Shown: in pieces, positions 4,979 to 48,086 of the stretch
Layout: each line of letters begins with the position of its first letter
Numbering within the stretch: the stretch's first letter is position 1
From: Bacteroidales bacterium
GTDB taxonomy: Bacteria > Bacteroidota > Bacteroidia > Bacteroidales > WCHB1-69
Direction: 5' to 3'
Assembly: GCA_017649855.1 (NCBI GenBank)
Contig: JAGCGA010000011.1
Span: forward strand, 1 to 64,000
DNA length: 64,000 bases
Translations under genes and position numbers: made by a program
Notes under the pieces: model-generated
Database searches by the model: none
What the model was told of the DNA's origin: nothing
The model's input: the letters and a program-made list of their open reading frames with translations, nothing else

Positions 4979-5703
4979 TTACGACGAAGCAGTACAATTT
5001 CGGTGGCGAAGAGGAATAAAAAGATGACGCTGAGGAAGTAGATGACGTCGCGAGAGTCAATCACGCCTTTGCTGATGGAGGCGTAGTGATGTTCGATGCC
5101 CAGGGTCTTGATGTAGTAACCGACAGCGCCAAGCGATTCGAAAGAATAGATGAAGGCGAAGCCGAAATAGCAGATAAAGCAGAGCAAGGCAGCGATGATG
5201 AAGGCGATGATCTGGTTGTTGGTGATGGAAGATGAGAACAGCCCAATGGAGATAAAGGTGGCACCGAGGAAGACAAGTCCGAGATAGGAGCCCCACGTGC
5301 TACCCATGTCGATATTGCCGACGGGGTTGCCGAGCAGATACACGCTGATGATATAGATGAAAGTGGGGATTAAGGCTATGACGAGCAGGGTGAGGCAGGC
5401 CAGGAATTTGGCGCTGATGATCTGCAAGTCGGTAAGGGGCTTGGTGAGCAGGATGTCCATGGTTCCGGTGCGGCGTTCCTCAGCAAAGGAGCGCATGGTG
5501 ATGGCAGGCACCAAGAAGATGAACAAAAACTGCGAAAGGTTAAAAAGTCCGTGTATGTCAGCCATGCCAGCTTCCATGATATTGTCCATGTTGGGGAACA
5601 CCCATAGAAAGAGACCGGACACAATCAGGAAGACCCCTACAAAAATGTAGCCTAGAATGGAGCTTAAAAAGGCCTTTATTTCTTTGAGATACAGATAGAA
5701 CAT
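4972..5703 (-). CDS. gldF: GldF-like ABC transporter permease
   Basis: A permease of about 243 residues with six hydrophobic segments of the ABC-2 type, containing the family-typical RTGTMDILLTKPL loop after the second segment. It would form the membrane channel partner of GldG. The open frame extends to an upstream ATG at 5730, but that codon lies inside a good minus-strand -7 box (5724-5731), and homologues begin like the 5703 start (MFYLYLKEIK), so 5703 is chosen. First gene of a probable gldF-gldG-(M16) unit. Confidence 0.86.
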   Translation of the reverse strand: MFYLYLKEIKAFLSSILGYIFVGVFLIVSGLFLWVFPNMDNIMEAGMADIHGLFNLSQFLFIFLVPAITMRSFAEERRTGTMDILLTKPLTDLQIISAKFLACLTLLVIALIPTFIYIISVYLLGNPVGNIDMGSTWGSYLGLVFLGATFISIGLFSSSITNNQIIAFIIAALLCFICYFGFAFIYSFESLGAVGYYIKTLGIEHHYASISKGVIDSRDVIYFLSVIFLFLFATEIVLLRRKW

Positions 5704-5723
5704 CGTATTAAATTTTAAGCCTG

Positions 5724-5753
5724 CAAACATACATAAATTTCGCCAATTTTCAA
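5724..5753 (-). promoter_or_regulatory. Bacteroidetes-type promoter for gldFG
   Basis: On the minus strand the -7 box TATGTTTG (5724-5731) matches TAnnTTTG, and a -33 TTG (5751-5753) lies 19 nt upstream, the expected spacing. It fits transcription starting just ahead of the 5703 start codon. Confidence 0.7.
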
Positions 5754-5792
5754 TAGCGAATAGCTAGGGAGTAATAGCTAATGGCCAACGGC
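5754..5792. repeat. Degenerate 7-bp tandem repeat
   Basis: Reads as consecutive heptamers of the type AATAGCT, TAATAGC, TAATGGC, CAACGGC. It lies directly downstream of the M3 peptidase stop codon. Related units occur at 7856, 9832, 12604 and 17884. Confidence 0.65.
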
Positions 5793-5796
5793 TTCT

Positions 5797-7836
5797 TCAC
5801 TTCAGTCCGTCACGATGCAGAAGGGCGTCGGGGGAGGGCTCGTGACCAGCAAAATCGGTGAACATCTGCATGGCATCCACGCTGCCGCCTCTGGATAGGA
5901 TGGTCTTGCGATAGCGTTGGGCGGTTTCCACATTCATCACACCCTCTTGGACAAAGCAGTTGAAGGCGTCGGCCTCCAGCATCTCGGCCCATTTGTAACC
6001 GTAATACCCTGCCGCATAGCCGCCTGAGAAGAGGTGGCCGAAGGAGGTGCTCATACAGGTGCCGGGCACCACGGGGAACAACTCCACGGTGTCGAAGACG
6101 CTGCGCTCCACCGCATACACATCCTGAAGCTGGTCGGGTGGGGTGGTGTGCCATTTCATGTCGAGATAGCCGAAGGAGAGCTGGCGGGTACAGGCATACC
6201 CCGCCATGTACTGGCGCATCTTGCGTATCTGGGTGATGAAGGTCTCCGGTATGCGCTCGCTAGTCTGATAGTGGCGAGCGAAGGTCTCCAGGAAGACGGG
6301 CTCCACGGCCCAGTTCTCATTGAGTTGCGAGGGCAGCTCCACAAAGTCACGCGGGGAGTTGGTGCCCGACAGGGAGGCATAGGGCACCTCCGACAGGATG
6401 CTGTTGAGGGCATGGCCGAACTCGTGCAAGAAGGTGGTGACCTCCCCGAAGGTCAGCAACGAAGGCATCTGCTCCGTGGATGGGGTGAAGTTCATCACCA
6501 AGCTGACCAGCGGACGCACATCCTTTCCGTCCTTATCCCGATACTGTTCCCGGAAGTTGGTCATCCAGGCACCACTGCGTTTGGTGGCCCGTGGATGGAA
6601 GTCCAAATACAACACCGCCATGAAACGGTCACCGTCATAGACCTCATAAACTTTCACGTCCGGGTGGTATTTTTCAATCTCGTCGCTAGCTACAAAGCGC
6701 AGCCCATACAGTCTTTCGGCTAATCCCAACACTCCCTTGATGACTTGCTGGAGTTCAAAGTAGGGCTTCAGCGCTTCGGTGCTCAGATGGAAGAGCGCCT
6801 GTTGCTGTTTTTCGGCATAATAGGCATAATCCCATCGTTGCAGGGGCCCTTCAAAGCCGATGGATTCCGCATATTGCTGCAACGTCGCGATCTCTCGCCG
6901 ACCGGCAGGCAGGGCGTAGGTCTTCAACTCATCCAACAACCCATACACCCGATCCGTACTCTTGGCCATGCGGTCATGCAAAGCATAGTCGGCATAGGTC
7001 TGGTAGCCGAGCAACTGTGCTATCTCGTGGCGACAGGTTACAATGTCGAGGATGTTCTGGCAGTTGTCATAGGGATCGTGAAAGGCTTTGCAGGAGGAGT
7101 GCATATACATCTCGTGGCGCAACTTCCGGTCGTCGGCATATTTCAGGATGGCCGTGACGCAAGGGGCCGACAGGTCGAAGAGATATCCCTCTTTTTGTTG
7201 CTCTTGCGCTTTGTGGGCAGCCAGACTGAGTGCGGATTCCGGCACTCCTTGCAGCCGTGTTTTGTCGGGCAGAAGCAACGTGTAGGCGTTGTTGGCCTCC
7301 AAGGCTTGGTGCCCGAAAGCGAGGGTAAGGTTCGCCAGCCGGATGCTCAACTCGTTGAAGCGCTTCTTGCCGGCCTCGTCCAGGTCCGCCCCACTGTGGA
7401 TGAACCCATCATAGGTGTCTTCCAGCAACTTCCGATCCAATGGATTCAAGGAGTCTAACTCGTTCTGATAGACCGTCTTGATGCGCTGGAACAATTCGGC
7501 ATCCAGATGGATGCTGTTGGAGAACTCGGAGAGCAGGGGTTGCACCTTGTCCGCGATGGCGTGCATTTCCGGGGTGCCGTCACATTCCAAGATGTTGAAA
7601 AAAATCTCCGTGACACGATTCAACATACTGCCTGTATGCTCTAAAGCAACCACCGTATTCTGAAAGGTGGGGGCCTCCGGATTGGTACGGATAGCGGCAA
7701 TCTCCGCCTTGGCCTGCCGGATGCCCTCCTCAAAGGCGGGCTGGTAGTGTTCTGTCTTGATCTGGCTGAAAGGAGGTGTCTGCCGAGGCGTATTCCATGC
7801 TCGGCAGAAAGGATTTTGAAGCAAATTATCACGCAT
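5797..7836 (-). CDS. M3 family oligopeptidase (Dcp/PrlC-like)
   Basis: A 679-residue protein without a signal peptide, hence cytoplasmic. The thimet-oligopeptidase zinc motif is HEFGH at 471-475, and the third ligand is E500 in DFVELPSQ; the substrate-binding tail includes YAAGYYGYKWAE near residue 610. Length and order match peptidyl-dipeptidase Dcp and oligopeptidase A, which clear short peptides in the cell. Dcp versus oligopeptidase A cannot be settled from the sequence alone. Confidence 0.92.
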   Translation of the reverse strand: MRDNLLQNPFCRAWNTPRQTPPFSQIKTEHYQPAFEEGIRQAKAEIAAIRTNPEAPTFQNTVVALEHTGSMLNRVTEIFFNILECDGTPEMHAIADKVQPLLSEFSNSIHLDAELFQRIKTVYQNELDSLNPLDRKLLEDTYDGFIHSGADLDEAGKKRFNELSIRLANLTLAFGHQALEANNAYTLLLPDKTRLQGVPESALSLAAHKAQEQQKEGYLFDLSAPCVTAILKYADDRKLRHEMYMHSSCKAFHDPYDNCQNILDIVTCRHEIAQLLGYQTYADYALHDRMAKSTDRVYGLLDELKTYALPAGRREIATLQQYAESIGFEGPLQRWDYAYYAEKQQQALFHLSTEALKPYFELQQVIKGVLGLAERLYGLRFVASDEIEKYHPDVKVYEVYDGDRFMAVLYLDFHPRATKRSGAWMTNFREQYRDKDGKDVRPLVSLVMNFTPSTEQMPSLLTFGEVTTFLHEFGHALNSILSEVPYASLSGTNSPRDFVELPSQLNENWAVEPVFLETFARHYQTSERIPETFITQIRKMRQYMAGYACTRQLSFGYLDMKWHTTPPDQLQDVYAVERSVFDTVELFPVVPGTCMSTSFGHLFSGGYAAGYYGYKWAEMLEADAFNCFVQEGVMNVETAQRYRKTILSRGGSVDAMQMFTDFAGHEPSPDALLHRDGLK

Positions 7837-43445: not shown

Positions 43446-43568
43446 GGAATGGTGTCGGGGCCCGTTTTTTGTGTCTGCCCCCGTGTTTTTATAAATAGTT
43501 TTTAAGGTTGCTTGACCTCTTCCATGGGTTCATCACAGGGTGTCTCCCCAAAAAATGTAACCTTTTCG

Positions 43569-43576
43569 TATTTTTG
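43569..43576 (+). promoter_or_regulatory. -7 box of the ECF sigma gene
   Basis: TATTTTTG, 29 nt upstream of the start codon. It looks like a housekeeping promoter, not an ECF-type one. Confidence 0.6.
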
Positions 43577-43605
43577 CATCTTCTTAATGTACGACAAAGC
43601 GAAGG

Positions 43606-44121
43606 ATGACGAAAGAAGAGTTCTGGTCGAAGCAGTATAAGAGCCACATCGGCAAGATGGTGGGCGTGTGTTACCGCTATGTCGGCGACTGGCAGGTGGC
43701 GGAGGATTTGGCGCAGGATGCTTTCTTGAAGGCAATGGAAAAGGGGAGCTCGTATCACGCGTGGGGCAGTTTCGAGGGGTGGCTCAAGAAGATAGCCGTC
43801 AACGAGGCGCTGATGTACCTGCGCGACCAGCCCGAAACGATGGTGCTGGACGAGGGGATGGCTGTTGAGGAGCCGCTGGCCGACGAGCCCCAGGAGGTGA
43901 AAGTGGATTTCTCTCAGGAGGAGTTGTTGGGATTCATCCAACAGTTGCCCGTCAAACAGCGCACGGTCTTCAACCTCTATGCGGTGGAGCACTGGTCGCA
44001 CAAACAGATTGCCAAGGAACTGGACATTTCCGTTGCCAACTCCAAGGTGCTGCTCTCCCGCGCGAGGGCGGAGTTACAAGGGATGCTGGCGGCGATGAGA
44101 ATTAAGAAGTTAAGAAAATAA
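43606..44121 (+). CDS. ECF-family RNA polymerase sigma factor
   Basis: A 171-residue sigma-70 family protein. Region 2 is CYRYVGDWQVAEDLAQDAFLKAM (residues 22-44), and region 4 is QLPVKQRTVFNLYAVEHWSHKQIAKELDISVANSKVLLSRARAEL (128-172) with the helix-turn-helix; the acidic linker between them is short. It should direct polymerase to envelope genes in response to a signal relayed by an anti-sigma factor, for which the protein at 45383-45925 is a candidate. Followed by a lipoprotein gene after 20 nt. Confidence 0.93.
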   Translation: MTKEEFWSKQYKSHIGKMVGVCYRYVGDWQVAEDLAQDAFLKAMEKGSSYHAWGSFEGWLKKIAVNEALMYLRDQPETMVLDEGMAVEEPLADEPQEVKVDFSQEELLGFIQQLPVKQRTVFNLYAVEHWSHKQIAKELDISVANSKVLLSRARAELQGMLAAMRIKKLRK

Positions 44122-44140
44122 GAAACTAAGAAATTAAGAT
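44105..44140 (+). repeat. 8-bp tandem repeat spacer
   Basis: GAAGTTAA, GAAAATAA, GAAACTAA, GAAATTAA in octamer phase; it overlaps the last codons of the sigma gene and ends at the next start codon. Confidence 0.7.
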
Positions 44141-44141
44141 T

Positions 44142-44753
44142 ATGGCAACATTATTCCTTAAGCAGTCCATTCCCCATCTTTTAGAAGGGGTGCCCGAAGG
44201 ACGGGGTAGTTCAAGGGGCAAGAGCTCGACAGGGCAAGTAACCACACCCAAGCGCAGCGCAGTGTGGAGCGTAGCTGTCCTCCTGATGGCTGTCGCTTTC
44301 CTGATGGCCGCCTGCACGAAACCCGAAAAGAAAGCGCTCGACGGTACTTGGCGGTGGACCGTCACCACGGGCGGCATCGCCGGCGTATGGTTTACCCCCG
44401 AAAGCGAAGGTTTCGAGGCCGAACTCGTCTTCAACGGCAGCAGTTTCACCCTGTTTAAAGATGGCGAGGCGGTTGCCTCCGGAACTTATCACATTGATTA
44501 TGACGTGGATGAAACGTTATACACCGACAAGGGAGACCAGGACGAACCCTTCTATTCCTGGTTCAACATACGCTTCCGCCTCACCGAGTCGCAACATAAA
44601 AAAATCGCAGAGGCCTTCAACGGGAAGATTTCGTTGGCCACGCCGCACAAGTTTCTCGCCACCCTCGGTTACAGCGAGGCAGAGGGGCAAGTGTTTTCGA
44701 TGTGCGAAGACGGAATGTATGATGGTTTCTGCTATACTTTTGTAAAGAAATGA
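44142..44753 (+). CDS. Lipoprotein with repeat-derived N-terminal extension
   Basis: A 203-residue frame. The lipobox is LMAAC with C58, preceded by a normal signal core (KRSAVWSVAVLLMAVAF), so about 35 residues in front of it are unusual. Those codons lie in a sequence that begins with CCCC...GGGG (44172-44190) and GCCCGAAGGACGGGGTAG and looks like an inserted intergenic repeat. The mature part (WRWTVTTGGIAGVWF, LVFNGSSFTLFKDG) suggests a small lipocalin-like beta domain. The true start may be internal. Second gene of the sigma-factor cluster; function unknown. Confidence 0.7.
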   Translation: MATLFLKQSIPHLLEGVPEGRGSSRGKSSTGQVTTPKRSAVWSVAVLLMAVAFLMAACTKPEKKALDGTWRWTVTTGGIAGVWFTPESEGFEAELVFNGSSFTLFKDGEAVASGTYHIDYDVDETLYTDKGDQDEPFYSWFNIRFRLTESQHKKIAEAFNGKISLATPHKFLATLGYSEAEGQVFSMCEDGMYDGFCYTFVKK

Positions 44754-44784
44754 GAAGTTAAGAAGTTGGATAGGAGACCTCGGG

Positions 44785-44872
44785 TGCAGGCCGTCAGGTC
44801 TGCAGGGCTCGGTAGGGAAGGACGATGTCGATAAAGGTTCGCACGCCGCAGGTGCGCGGGCAACAAGAAGAA
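44785..44872. repeat. Structured repeat element, copy D (minus orientation)
   Basis: On the minus strand: CACCTGCGGCG, about 35 bases, CCTACCGAGC (box at plus 44807-44815), then an 8-bp hairpin TGCAGACC/GGCCTGCA with loop TGAC (plus 44785-44804, one G-T pair). It fills the 148-bp gap between two lipoprotein genes. Confidence 0.65.
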
Positions 44873-44901
44873 AATGATGGTAAATTCCAAATAATACAGA
44901 T

Positions 44902-45393
44902 ATGAAATTGACGATACGATTCACAGCGATTATCTTGCTAACGGTACTGGCCACCGCTTGCGATCCAGGCTACAACGAGGATATGCTCATCCGTAACGCC
45001 TCTTCGCACAGCGTGACCGTCATCCCCGCCCCATACAGCTGGTACGATAGTGGAACGGACTCCACCCACACCTGGACAAACGAAAGTTACACGCTTGTCC
45101 CCGGGCAGGAAGTGGTGATACATCACTCCGGCGGTATCGGTGCTGCCAGTTTTGAAGAAGGGGTACAGGCATTTCTCCAATATTACAGTAACAGCGTGAC
45201 TTTTCGCTTCGATGGGGAACTTGGGCCGCAAGTAGTGTATTATGCTGGGGACACAACGGGCATCAGTCCCTATAATTTCAGTTCCACCCTCTATCAATAT
45301 GAGGAGACACGCCACTACGGCCGCTGGTTCAACGGTCATCCATCCTATGGGAAACTCACTTTTACCATCACGGACGAGCATTATGAGAAATAA
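44902..45393 (+). CDS. Small lipoprotein of the sigma-factor cluster
   Basis: A 163-residue protein with lipobox LATAC (C20) and a mature domain of about 143 residues rich in beta strands (NSVTFRFDGELGPQVVYYAG). No family recognised. Its last 11 bases overlap the next gene, so the two are coupled. It should be attached to the outer membrane, next to the barrel encoded two genes downstream. Confidence 0.75.
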   Translation: MKLTIRFTAIILLTVLATACDPGYNEDMLIRNASSHSVTVIPAPYSWYDSGTDSTHTWTNESYTLVPGQEVVIHHSGGIGAASFEEGVQAFLQYYSNSVTFRFDGELGPQVVYYAGDTTGISPYNFSSTLYQYEETRHYGRWFNGHPSYGKLTFTITDEHYEK

Positions 45394-45925
45394 CCATACG
45401 AATATAGACCGAATGTTTGAGCGAGGCGTTTCCGATGTCTCCCGTATGCCGCAGGCCCCGATGACAGACGCCCAGATTGCCTCTGCCGCAGCCGCCTCCA
45501 AAACCGGTGCCGGCATCTGGCTGCTGTCACACGCCAAGGAGATCCTGATAGGGGCCGTCTCATTCACCGTGGGTGTGGGCGGAACCCTGCTCGCCACACA
45601 CACTCTCGGTGACCGCAACACGACGTCACAACCTGCCCAGAGCACCGTCATCGTTGTATCAGCCGACACAACCATGCTGGCCGACGACACGGTATCGGCC
45701 ATCGATGAGACGTCAGCATTGTCCAACACCCCCGTAGAGACGTGGCGTGGAACGTCTTCAACAACGACATCGCAAAACGCCTCTCAAGAAACGTTCCACG
45801 GAACGTCTCTAAAAACCGCACAACCCGCTGCAACGCCCGTCATCGTCACCAAAACGGTGATCCGCCGCGACACCGTGCACATTCACGAAACCATCACTAT
45901 CAAAGACACTGTATATGTACCGTAG
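45383..45925 (+). CDS. Single-pass inner-membrane protein, candidate anti-sigma/signal relay
   Basis: A 180-residue protein: a cytoplasmic N-terminal part (1-52, opening NIDRMFERGVSDV, reminiscent of Bacteroidetes ECF-linked anti-sigma-like proteins), a membrane segment (ILIGAVSFTVGVGGTLLA, 54-71) and a periplasmic tail ending in KTVIRRDTVHIHETITIKDTVYV. The same DT-rich pattern opens the next protein. A TAGAGACG palindrome lies inside the tail-coding region. The start is ATG 45383, overlapping the upstream lipoprotein gene; the longer frame from 45242 is within that gene. The anti-sigma role is inference from position and topology. Confidence 0.65.
   Translation: MRNNHTNIDRMFERGVSDVSRMPQAPMTDAQIASAAAASKTGAGIWLLSHAKEILIGAVSFTVGVGGTLLATHTLGDRNTTSQPAQSTVIVVSADTTMLADDTVSAIDETSALSNTPVETWRGTSSTTTSQNASQETFHGTSLKTAQPAATPVIVTKTVIRRDTVHIHETITIKDTVYVP
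45735..45811. repeat. TAGAGACG palindrome, copy 3, inside a coding region
   Basis: Left arm TAGAGACGT-GG-CGTGGAACGT (45735-45755) pairs with ACGTTCCACG-GA-ACGTCTCTA (45791-45811): 19 of 21 positions pair around a 35-nt centre. It encodes part of the periplasmic tail of the 45383-45925 protein. Confidence 0.75.
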
Positions 45926-47615
45926 CATCTGTTTGATTATTGCATTCACACTGTTCGCACTATCACTGGGCGCTCAACATCGCGACACCATCTACGTGAT
46001 TGAGACACAAAAGGTTTATGACACCATCATCTCCCGTGACACGGTATTCCTGCACGATACGATTCAGTTGCATAAAGAGGTACGTAATGATAATGTTACC
46101 GGAAAACAAAATGTTGAGGAGAATATATTTGCCACAAATTCGGACACTACCGCCCAAACAGTCCGAGCGACTGCTTCGAAAGAGTCTCTCTCTCAGAAAG
46201 AGCCTAAGAAGAAGTGGTATGCCGACCTCCCGGACGCCCTGTTCTTCAAGGGTTTCCAACTGGGTTATGTGCTGGAGGCCGACATCCTGTCCAAAGCGAA
46301 GCTGTCCAACACACAGTATATGAAGGCGAAGAACTCTATCGGCGGCCATGTCGGGCTGGAGTTCGCCTATCACTTCGCCAAGTACCTCGGCCTCTCGGCA
46401 GGACTCGAATACGGCACCACAGGGGCACTCCATTTCCACAATCGCAATGACGAGACATGGATAACACACGATAACATAGTGCCCTTTAACAACACCAGCT
46501 ACGGCATCTACAGCACCGGTTTCTCGATGCCGGTGAAGTTTGAGTTCCACGCGCCCATCTCCCCGAAAACATGGGTGACGCTCTCCGCCGGCGTGCGCCT
46601 CCGCATGCCGTGGTACACCTTCATGGCCGGTTACGACGACGATGTCAGCAGTCCGTACTCCATGCCTGGCCTGATATTGCCTGACACCACCGAGTATTAC
46701 GACCATCTGCGACTGGCCCCGGAAGTGCTGGATGCCAATCGCTTCCATGTGGACTTGCTGGCGAATGCGGGTTTCTATTTCCGGTTGGGTTACGGTGGAC
46801 TGCTCCGCTGGACCGTCGGCATAGACCTCCCGTTCAGGGATTTCGCCAGCGGCAACTATTCGGTACGGATTGACGGTTATAATGGAGTTGACCACATAAT
46901 GCCAGTCTCATACGACAACGGTACTTTCCGCTTGCGCAGCAATATGTTCAACACGCAAATCACTTTCATCCAGACATTTCAAAAGTCGAAACGGTGTGCT
47001 GAGAAATGTGAAAAGTGGAGAGAAGAAGGGCTGTATCGCCACGAGTTCAAATTTGACGTGTGCGACCCCACGGGCGTGATGCTCTTCGACCGCTACTTTG
47101 TGTTCGTCTATCCGAACGGCATGGAACCCAACCGCAGCTGGCGCAACGAGGATTTCTTCAGCACACCGGTGTTTTCCATCGGCTACCACTATCGTGTGGC
47201 TAAATGGTTCTGGCTTGGCCTGTCGCTCAGTACAGCCTACTATCGGGATCCTGAAAAGATACAAAACGGTTCAGATTTCATAGCTTCCTGCAACCGCGAA
47301 TTCTATTCGGTTGCCTTGATGCCCGAGGTGCGATTCTCCTATCTGAACCGTCCGCACGTCACCCTCTATTCGGCCCTGTCGGTCGGGTTCGCGCAATTTT
47401 TCGGCACCGAGGATTGCTACTATGTCACCTACCCAGAGCACCGTCATCCGTGGCTGAGCGGCGAAATTAACGGTGACTATTCACCCACCCGATTCTCCAC
47501 CCTCCACGTAACGCTTTTCGGCGTGAAGGCAGGTTGGAAACATCTGTTCGGCAGCATCGAACTGGGCGCTGGATACAAAGGATTGGGAAGTGTTGGCATA
47601 GGGTATGAGTTTTAA
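45915..47615 (+). CDS. Outer-membrane beta-barrel protein with DT-rich periplasmic head
   Basis: A 566-residue protein with signal peptide MYRSICLIIAFTLFALSLGAQ. Residues 22-58 repeat the motif RDTIYVIET / YDTIISRDTVFLHDTI, then a linker to about 100, then a long region of amphipathic strands (GFQLGYVLEAD, GGHVGLEFAYHF, LGLSAGLEYG, VTLSAGVRLRM, FGVKAGWKHL) ending in GYEF, an outer-membrane barrel signature. No TonB box or plug domain is seen. It overlaps the preceding gene by 11 nt, so the two are made together. A role in sensing at the outer membrane is suggested by context only. Confidence 0.78.
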   Translation: MYRSICLIIAFTLFALSLGAQHRDTIYVIETQKVYDTIISRDTVFLHDTIQLHKEVRNDNVTGKQNVEENIFATNSDTTAQTVRATASKESLSQKEPKKKWYADLPDALFFKGFQLGYVLEADILSKAKLSNTQYMKAKNSIGGHVGLEFAYHFAKYLGLSAGLEYGTTGALHFHNRNDETWITHDNIVPFNNTSYGIYSTGFSMPVKFEFHAPISPKTWVTLSAGVRLRMPWYTFMAGYDDDVSSPYSMPGLILPDTTEYYDHLRLAPEVLDANRFHVDLLANAGFYFRLGYGGLLRWTVGIDLPFRDFASGNYSVRIDGYNGVDHIMPVSYDNGTFRLRSNMFNTQITFIQTFQKSKRCAEKCEKWREEGLYRHEFKFDVCDPTGVMLFDRYFVFVYPNGMEPNRSWRNEDFFSTPVFSIGYHYRVAKWFWLGLSLSTAYYRDPEKIQNGSDFIASCNREFYSVALMPEVRFSYLNRPHVTLYSALSVGFAQFFGTEDCYYVTYPEHRHPWLSGEINGDYSPTRFSTLHVTLFGVKAGWKHLFGSIELGAGYKGLGSVGIGYEF

Positions 47616-47657
47616 TGGAGAATTAAGAAACTAAGAAATTAAGAAACTAAGAAAGTT
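47614..47657 (+). repeat. 8-bp tandem repeat spacer
   Basis: GAATTAA, then GAAACTAA, GAAATTAA, GAAACTAA, GAAAG: octamer phase filling the gap between the barrel gene and the last lipoprotein gene. Confidence 0.7.
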
Positions 47658-48086
47658 ATGAGAATAATGAAAAAGATTGGATTATTAGCATTAGTGATTA
47701 TGTGTGTCGGCTTGATGTCATGTGAGCGGCCGAAGGTGGACCCGAACGTGCGGTTTTACATGGACGGTCAGGAAATCACCACCGACACCGTTGTGGTGGC
47801 GTTGAACTCCTATCAGGAAATCACCATCAAGACCATTTCCCCGGATATGTTCTTCAGTTACTACTGGCAGCTTCCGACTGGCTATCCGGTGGAGCTGGGC
47901 AATGGGTCGGAGAATTTCCAGATTTTCCAGCAAAGTACAGGGTATAACGGGAACAGCGCCGTACACACCACAAATGCCCTGTTTAAGATGTTTTTCAGTG
48001 ACACCTTGTACCAGGCAGGCGATGTGTGCCGCTTGAGGGCATACAGTTCTGACTATCAACGGGTGCTGAATGTGGTGGTGGAATGA
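47658..48086 (+). CDS. Small lipoprotein at the end of the sigma-factor cluster
   Basis: A 142-residue protein with lipobox LMSC (C22) and a compact beta-rich mature domain (PNVRFYMDGQEITTDTVVVALNS ... YQRVLNVVVE), possibly Ig-like. An ATG at 47667 (MKKIGLL) is an alternative start. No family recognised; outer-membrane location expected. It is separated from the barrel gene only by a repeat spacer. Confidence 0.72.
   Translation: MRIMKKIGLLALVIMCVGLMSCERPKVDPNVRFYMDGQEITTDTVVVALNSYQEITIKTISPDMFFSYYWQLPTGYPVELGNGSENFQIFQQSTGYNGNSAVHTTNALFKMFFSDTLYQAGDVCRLRAYSSDYQRVLNVVVE

Follow-up and report, generated by a model that had tools for sequence, protein, structure and literature searches.

A probable two-protein sigma/anti-sigma switch spanning the cell envelope of a Bacteroidales bacterium, with paired hexad tails on its membrane partners

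A six-gene operon in a 64,000-nucleotide stretch of a Bacteroidales genome (the window; contig JAGCGA010000011.1, positions 1 to 64,000) probably encodes a two-protein trans-envelope sigma/anti-sigma switch, in which a single-pass inner-membrane (IM) protein acts as anti-sigma factor and a separate barrel as outer-membrane sensor. The six genes are co-directional and specify an extracytoplasmic function (ECF) sigma factor, lipoproteins A and B, the IM protein, the barrel, and lipoprotein C (Table 1). A first-pass annotation had described this order, with overlaps of 11 nucleotides (nt) between the middle genes, and had proposed an undescribed signaling system across both membranes. The order and the overlaps were reproduced here (lipoprotein B/IM, 45383-45393; IM/barrel, 45915-45925; exactly 11 nt each); a promoter at 43557-43580 and paired repeats on the tails of the IM protein and barrel had been missed. 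Because the sigma factor and IM protein, and likewise the IM protein and barrel, occur as natural gene fusions in related loci, a contact within each pair is supported.

The window sigma factor matched Sigma70_r2 (PF04542; E = 8.5e-16) and Sigma70_r4_2 (PF08281; E = 2e-16), both above cut-off, and its 171 aa hold only sigma-70 regions 2 and 4, as expected of an ECF sigma factor; the best specific NCBIfam matches fell below their cut-offs. In many sister loci, one of them in the window's own genome (G000, 2.36 Mb; fusion at G000:C25:765-1775; G- and L-numbers are our labels for genomes and loci), the sigma factor and IM protein form one open reading frame (ORF). The IM portion of these fusions aligns with the window protein from residue 9 through the C-terminal tail, and a barrel gene adjoins. 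Genomes G060, G559, and G571 show this layout of sigma-IM fusion plus DT-tailed barrel (DT, Asp-Thr). Beyond the family of the window, three further families of the class have equivalent fusions (L082/L193, L085/L192, L186, L187, and L188), and there the next gene, where the sequence covers it, has an N-terminus bearing DT motifs. These fusions lend weight to the earlier suggestion that the N-terminal ~52 residues of the IM protein could hold the sigma factor.

In a tree of sigma domains (IQ-TREE; short domain, midpoint root), the window group, with its separate sigma factor, nested inside the clade of sigma-IM fusions. Ultrafast bootstrap values were 98 for the node uniting all fused and window sigma factors, 90 for the window group with the fused L053, and 100 for L070 with two fused relatives; the node restricted to the genus was weaker (77). 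Given this nesting, the sigma-IM fusion looks like the ancestral form in the clade, from which the window form would have split later; the IM-barrel arrangements look secondary. Other sensor ends were also seen on the shared scaffold of sigma factor and transmembrane (TM) segment: in L076 (4668-6038) and L054 (9225-10613), an ECF sigma factor is fused to a TM segment and a WG-repeat part (PF14903), and in L075 (4220-5620) the sigma-TM part continues into an end that resembles TonB_C weakly, below cut-off.

The IM protein consists of ~52 N-terminal residues, one TM segment, and ~80 residues of low complexity. Its N-terminus is related to that of TM proteins linked to ECF sigma factors, some of them Dma-like (hhalign probability 87.6; E = 3.5e-6). 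No Pfam match at E<=1 was obtained for the protein (P0004), whether to FecR or to class I (ASDI) or zinc-finger anti-sigma domains, and it contains no cysteine. IM homologues were found in 21 of the 40 genomes searched, every one within the window's genus, and none was found at E <= 1e-3 in 16 other genera of the order. An IM-profile search of the class returned only weak matches outside the genus; a profile of the fused proteins performed better. A structural model of the fusion in L101 placed the sigma domains with confidence, and residues 191-220, which correspond to the block at IM residues 7-40, had a mean predicted local distance difference test score of 89-94; most of the remaining C-terminal part was of low confidence, with a disordered tail. 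By VIA-align, whose fold matches cover parts of the models, the L101 sigma factor matched the anti-sigma-bound sigma factor of SigW-RsiW (Z 12.8, root mean square deviation [rmsd] 4.4, 141 aligned residues), in contrast to an rmsd of ~26 against a sigma factor bound to RNA polymerase (RNAP). The modeled similarity to the anti-sigma-bound state is no more than mild evidence.

In two loci, L049 and L070 (the latter in the window's own genome), a single ORF encodes both IM protein and barrel, with the sigma factor separate; in L049 the fusion is accompanied by the same sigma factor and lipoproteins. Where the IM protein and barrel are separate, [KR][DE]TV hexads occur on both the IM C-terminal tail and the barrel N-terminal tail. 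Three hexads, approximately [KR][DE]T[VI]x[VI], close the IM tails; T164, T170, D175, and T176 are invariant (alignment A2). In the barrels, the signal peptide is directly followed by DT repeats with a 12-6-6 spacing. All barrels scored beside a separate IM or sigma-IM protein carried the N-terminal DT repeats, and nearly all partner IM tails carried hexads, the exception being L119, which has a frame break. By comparison, the repeat was missing from the two IM-barrel fusions and from stand-alone barrels with an intact N-terminus, and the corresponding stretch of the L049 fusion is degenerate. Docking of the two tails would be the simplest reading of these paired repeats and, together with the fusions, agrees with the earlier proposal that the periplasmic tail could contact the barrel. 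In L119 (2838-3901), the tail of the sigma-IM fusion is seemingly frame-shifted, through either a sequencing error or a recent break.

A DNA pattern for the barrel repeat had 51 sites in 24 genomes, compared with 3 in a reversed control. Of the 47 sites whose surroundings were checked, 45 adjoin an IM or sigma-IM gene and 2 (G000:C13) lack such a neighbor. The only genomes without a site were G001 and G014, in which no member of the IM family was found, and G007, with its fused IM protein and barrel. The pattern also brought to light another sigma-IM clade, whose neighboring barrels are matched weakly or not at all by the barrel profiles, and the hexad tail recurred in other families of the class as well as on barrels of unrelated type. 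We give roughly even chances to the broader proposal that the hexad tails are a non-covalent coupling between IM anti-sigma factor and barrel that serves the whole class and joins barrels with nothing else in common, and that the parts of an ancestral sigma-anti-sigma fusion later split and rejoined into at least three layouts. The three layouts are sigma / anti-sigma / barrel; sigma-anti-sigma / barrel; and sigma / anti-sigma-barrel.

The barrel protein has its own N-terminal signal peptide and is encoded by a gene separate from that of the IM protein. It was modeled as two tandem 8-strand barrels (predicted template modeling score 0.53). The first matched OmpA (9fzc; Z 13.7, rmsd 3.0, 163 aligned) and OmpW (2f1t; Z 13.5, rmsd 3.5, 180 aligned), and the second matched OmpA (2k0l; Z 12.7, rmsd 5.1, 134 aligned) and PagL (2erv; Z 11.3, rmsd 3.1, 118 aligned). 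Half-size barrels in some relatives are consistent with the tandem model. The Pfam match to OMP_b-brl was weak and below cut-off, and none of the proteins of the window operon matched Plug, TonB_dep_Rec, or STN at E<=1.

Nearly all orthologous sigma genes are preceded, at a short distance, by a near-invariant GTAACC-N13-GCATC motif; the fused and WG types have promoter variants of their own, ending in GCGTC. With up to three mismatches (<=3), the window's own genome contains two sites, one upstream of the window sigma gene and one upstream of the C25 sigma-IM fusion, and the number expected in the window by shuffling was 0. At <=2 mismatches, the motif was present in 22/24 genomes of the genus and the reversed-pattern control gave 0. 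Further sites in relatives lie upstream of small barrels and lipoproteins, among others, and in L053/L098 a second copy stands immediately upstream of the barrel gene. Since the motif precedes the sigma gene, its orthologues, and the C25 fusion, the operon is likely autoregulated by its sigma factor, which would read GTAACC-N13-GCATC. Five further GCAACC-type sites in the window's own genome (<=2 mismatches) were not counted as targets, as no consistent gene lies behind them. In L228, L230, and L247, the motif precedes a small protein of 135-146 aa and then a radical SAM-like protein (~70-1560 nt downstream).

We therefore propose the following sequence of events, in which sigma inhibition, tail docking, the stimulus, and proteolysis are all inferred. 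The cytoplasmic N-terminus of the IM protein would hold the ECF sigma factor inactive; its single helix would cross the inner membrane, and its long low-complexity periplasmic linker would end in the [KR][DE]TV hexad tail. The double barrel would project a matching tail into the periplasm, and docking of the two would join the cytoplasm to the outer membrane. A disturbed outer membrane or barrel, or a bound ligand, would alter this link, after which the IM anti-sigma factor would be cut, probably by an RseP-like site-2 protease, which is encoded. The freed sigma factor would then transcribe its own operon from GTAACC-N13-GCATC, yielding more barrel and the three lipoproteins along with fresh anti-sigma factor, by which the switch would be reset.

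Several observations weigh against this proposal. The barrel N-terminal tail and the tail of a fused relative were modeled as disordered, and the compact L101 sigma factor may be the usual AlphaFold output for a free sigma factor. There is overlap between the promoter motif and the -7 box of Bacteroidota housekeeping promoters (TAnnTTTG), and the proteolytic step is drawn by analogy. Counts over loci are not independent, because the loci are mostly related by descent. In L194 (2549-4237), a split locus from another family, the barrel carries a single DT and the IM protein has no hexad tail. In L300 (G000:C13:52000-63045; 5163-6941), two DT-tailed barrels occur, and no IM gene was found nearby. 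At the equivalent place in L303, a relative has a sigma-IM fusion; in L300, a 299-aa multi-TM ORF lies there on the opposite strand.

The same genes and tails would also serve a misassembly sensor of the sigma-E type, in which the tail or ends of the barrel signal only if insertion fails. Unassembled barrel would then engage the IM tail and set off cleavage, with no contact at rest; this account departs from resting-state docking solely in when contact occurs and in its sign. An RseP-like protease would be at hand, and the presence of the barrel within its own operon would provide feedback. However, the barrels of L049 and L070 are permanently linked to the IM protein, which fits a resting-state contact better, and we regard such a sensor as unlikely. 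Even with the IM protein acting as anti-sigma factor, the barrel might be just a regulated product, with hexad tails that are generic periplasmic spacers or that bind peptidoglycan or a third protein; we consider this improbable. Such an arrangement would suit the predicted disorder of the tails, the missing IM tail of L194, and the position of the barrel in the operon, with a promoter copy of its own in L053/L098; nevertheless, IM-barrel fusions occur and are without hexads, and the hexads track a separate partner even on barrels that profiles do not recognize. The fused clade tethers the sigma factor to the membrane, as would be expected if the IM protein were an activator or membrane anchor rather than an inhibitor. 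Yet the N-terminal block is related to Dma-like proteins, Dma1/Dma2 and Reo act as inhibitors (PMC13088901, PMC13114119), and the fused anti-sigma part of IutY is cleaved off to free its sigma factor (PMC8999054), making an activating or anchoring role very improbable. Some relatives carry additional lipoprotein genes, lack some, or have half-size barrels, which might hint at a fortuitous or loose cluster of functionally unconnected genes, but conserved order, overlaps, and promoter, and the gene fusions, leave that idea scarcely credible.

The claim that the system is undescribed stands in part. Dma/Das and EcfO/Reo of Bacteroides, in which one anti-sigma polypeptide spans both membranes, are known (PMC13088901, PMC13114119, PMC9308784; the features of Dma are those given in PMC13088901, which cites Pardue et al. 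2024), and loss of Dma or Reo raises the output of outer-membrane vesicles or surface lipoproteins (PMC13088901, PMC13114119, PMC9308784). In these Bacteroidota systems, as in the window locus, an ECF sigma gene lies next to one for a membrane protein that has an N-terminal sigma-binding block (putative in the window), one TM segment, and a disordered tether; there is an outer-membrane barrel, and envelope lipoproteins are part of the output. In contrast, the window anti-sigma factor and barrel are two genes, the barrel having its own signal peptide; paired hexad tails occupy the position of the covalent tether; the sigma clade includes sigma-anti-sigma fusions; and the barrel is a tandem of two. 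The one-polypeptide arrangement, as in Dma, is found in L049 and L070 but not in the window, and the window system, although it looks like a two-part counterpart of Dma, is not Dma as defined, because its barrel is a separate protein. What is new relative to Dma/Das and EcfO/Reo is the two-protein form with paired tails, together with the sigma-anti-sigma fusions; the two-protein form with paired tails was not described in the literature searched, whose coverage was incomplete.

Among other families, IutY of Pseudomonas putida (an ECF243 hybrid) is a natural sigma-TM-anti-sigma fusion, as in the sister clade (PMC8999054, PMC5411451), and has an outer-membrane partner and a sigma factor freed by proteolysis (PMC8999054). 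The window differs in its separate sigma factor and IM protein, which are one polypeptide in the sister loci, in lacking a TonB-dependent receptor, and in that no FecR-type region was found. FecIRA likewise combines an ECF sigma factor, a single-pass inner-membrane regulator, and an outer-membrane protein with a periplasmic N-terminal part (PMC9249621, PMC11637429); however, no plug, STN, or FecR was found by Pfam in the window operon, whose small OmpA/OmpW-like barrels contrast with the 22-strand receptor, and assignment to this family was rejected, in line with the annotation's point that the barrel has no TonB plug. The SigE-RseA type shares an ECF sigma factor whose neighbor is a single-pass inner-membrane protein with little cytoplasmic sequence (PMC7406223), whereas the window IM protein has no class I or zinc anti-sigma domain by sequence, and both of these families (RseA and RsiW types) were rejected on domain evidence.

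Class I anti-sigma domains adjoin just 6% of Bacteroidetes ECFs (PMC7406223), and the window locus and its relatives offer, for one clade, a concrete and testable answer to how the others are controlled. The gene fusions are direct pointers to binding partners, and the natural sigma-anti-sigma fusions are suited to structure determination. The short hexad repeat can be used to find more outer-membrane sensors and their sigma factors. In contrast to the one-piece Dma proteins, the periplasmic link would be a separable, mutable contact.

Table 1. Features of the window operon (positions in the 64,000-nt window)
Feature	Position	Strand	Basis or remarks
ECF-type promoter GTAACCTTTTCGTATTTTTGCATC (-35 GTAACC, -10 GCATC)	43557-43580	+	motif upstream of orthologous sigma genes
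ECF sigma factor gene	43606-44121	+	171 aa; Pfam Sigma70_r2 and Sigma70_r4_2
Lipoprotein A gene	44142-44753	+	lipobox MAAC, Cys58; no Pfam family
Lipoprotein B gene	44902-45393	+	163 aa; lipobox at Cys20
IM protein gene (single-pass inner-membrane, proposed anti-sigma factor)	45383-45925	+	180 aa; sigma-fused in sister loci
Proposed sigma-holding segment (IM residues 7-40, NIDRMFE...)	45401-45502	+	conserved N-terminal block
Transmembrane segment (IM residues ~54-72)	45542-45598	+	sequence hydrophobicity
IM C-terminal hexad tail (residues 152-180, ...RRDTVHIHETITIKDTVYVP)	45836-45922	+	alignment A2, hexad composition
Barrel gene (outer-membrane protein, two tandem 8-strand barrels)	45915-47615	+	566 aa; model and fold matches
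Barrel N-terminal hexad tail (residues 24-49; DT spaced 12-6-6)	45984-46061	+	invariant in alignment A3
First 8-strand barrel (residues 108-356)	46236-46982	+	OmpA/OmpW-like fold matches
Second 8-strand barrel (residues 375-566)	47037-47612	+	OmpA/PagL fold matches
Lipoprotein C gene	47658-48086	+	142 aa; lipobox at Cys22

The order of sigma factor, lipoproteins, IM protein, barrel, and lipoprotein was repeated around the IM homologues of the genus, so the first-pass annotation's condition for refutation, an order conserved nowhere, did not hold. The IM/barrel overlap is 11 nt in 12/22 scored relatives and mostly 4 nt in the sigma-fused ones. Relatives retrieved with the barrel were uncultured Bacteroidales, for the most part from ruminant gut samples. 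One split operon, L040 (773-3401), has two DT-tailed barrels, one full-size and one half-size.

Pfam and NCBIfam searches of the lipoproteins returned nothing useful. Homologues of lipoproteins A and B occur in the operons of relatives, those of A frequently in multiple copies, and homologues of lipoprotein C are the final gene in most complete split operons. Lipoprotein A was probably called too long (44142-44258), with its true start at about residue 37, since most relatives begin near that residue; the N-terminal extension is common to the window and its closest relative. The gene upstream of the sigma gene encodes an M64-type peptidase and seems to lie outside the operon.

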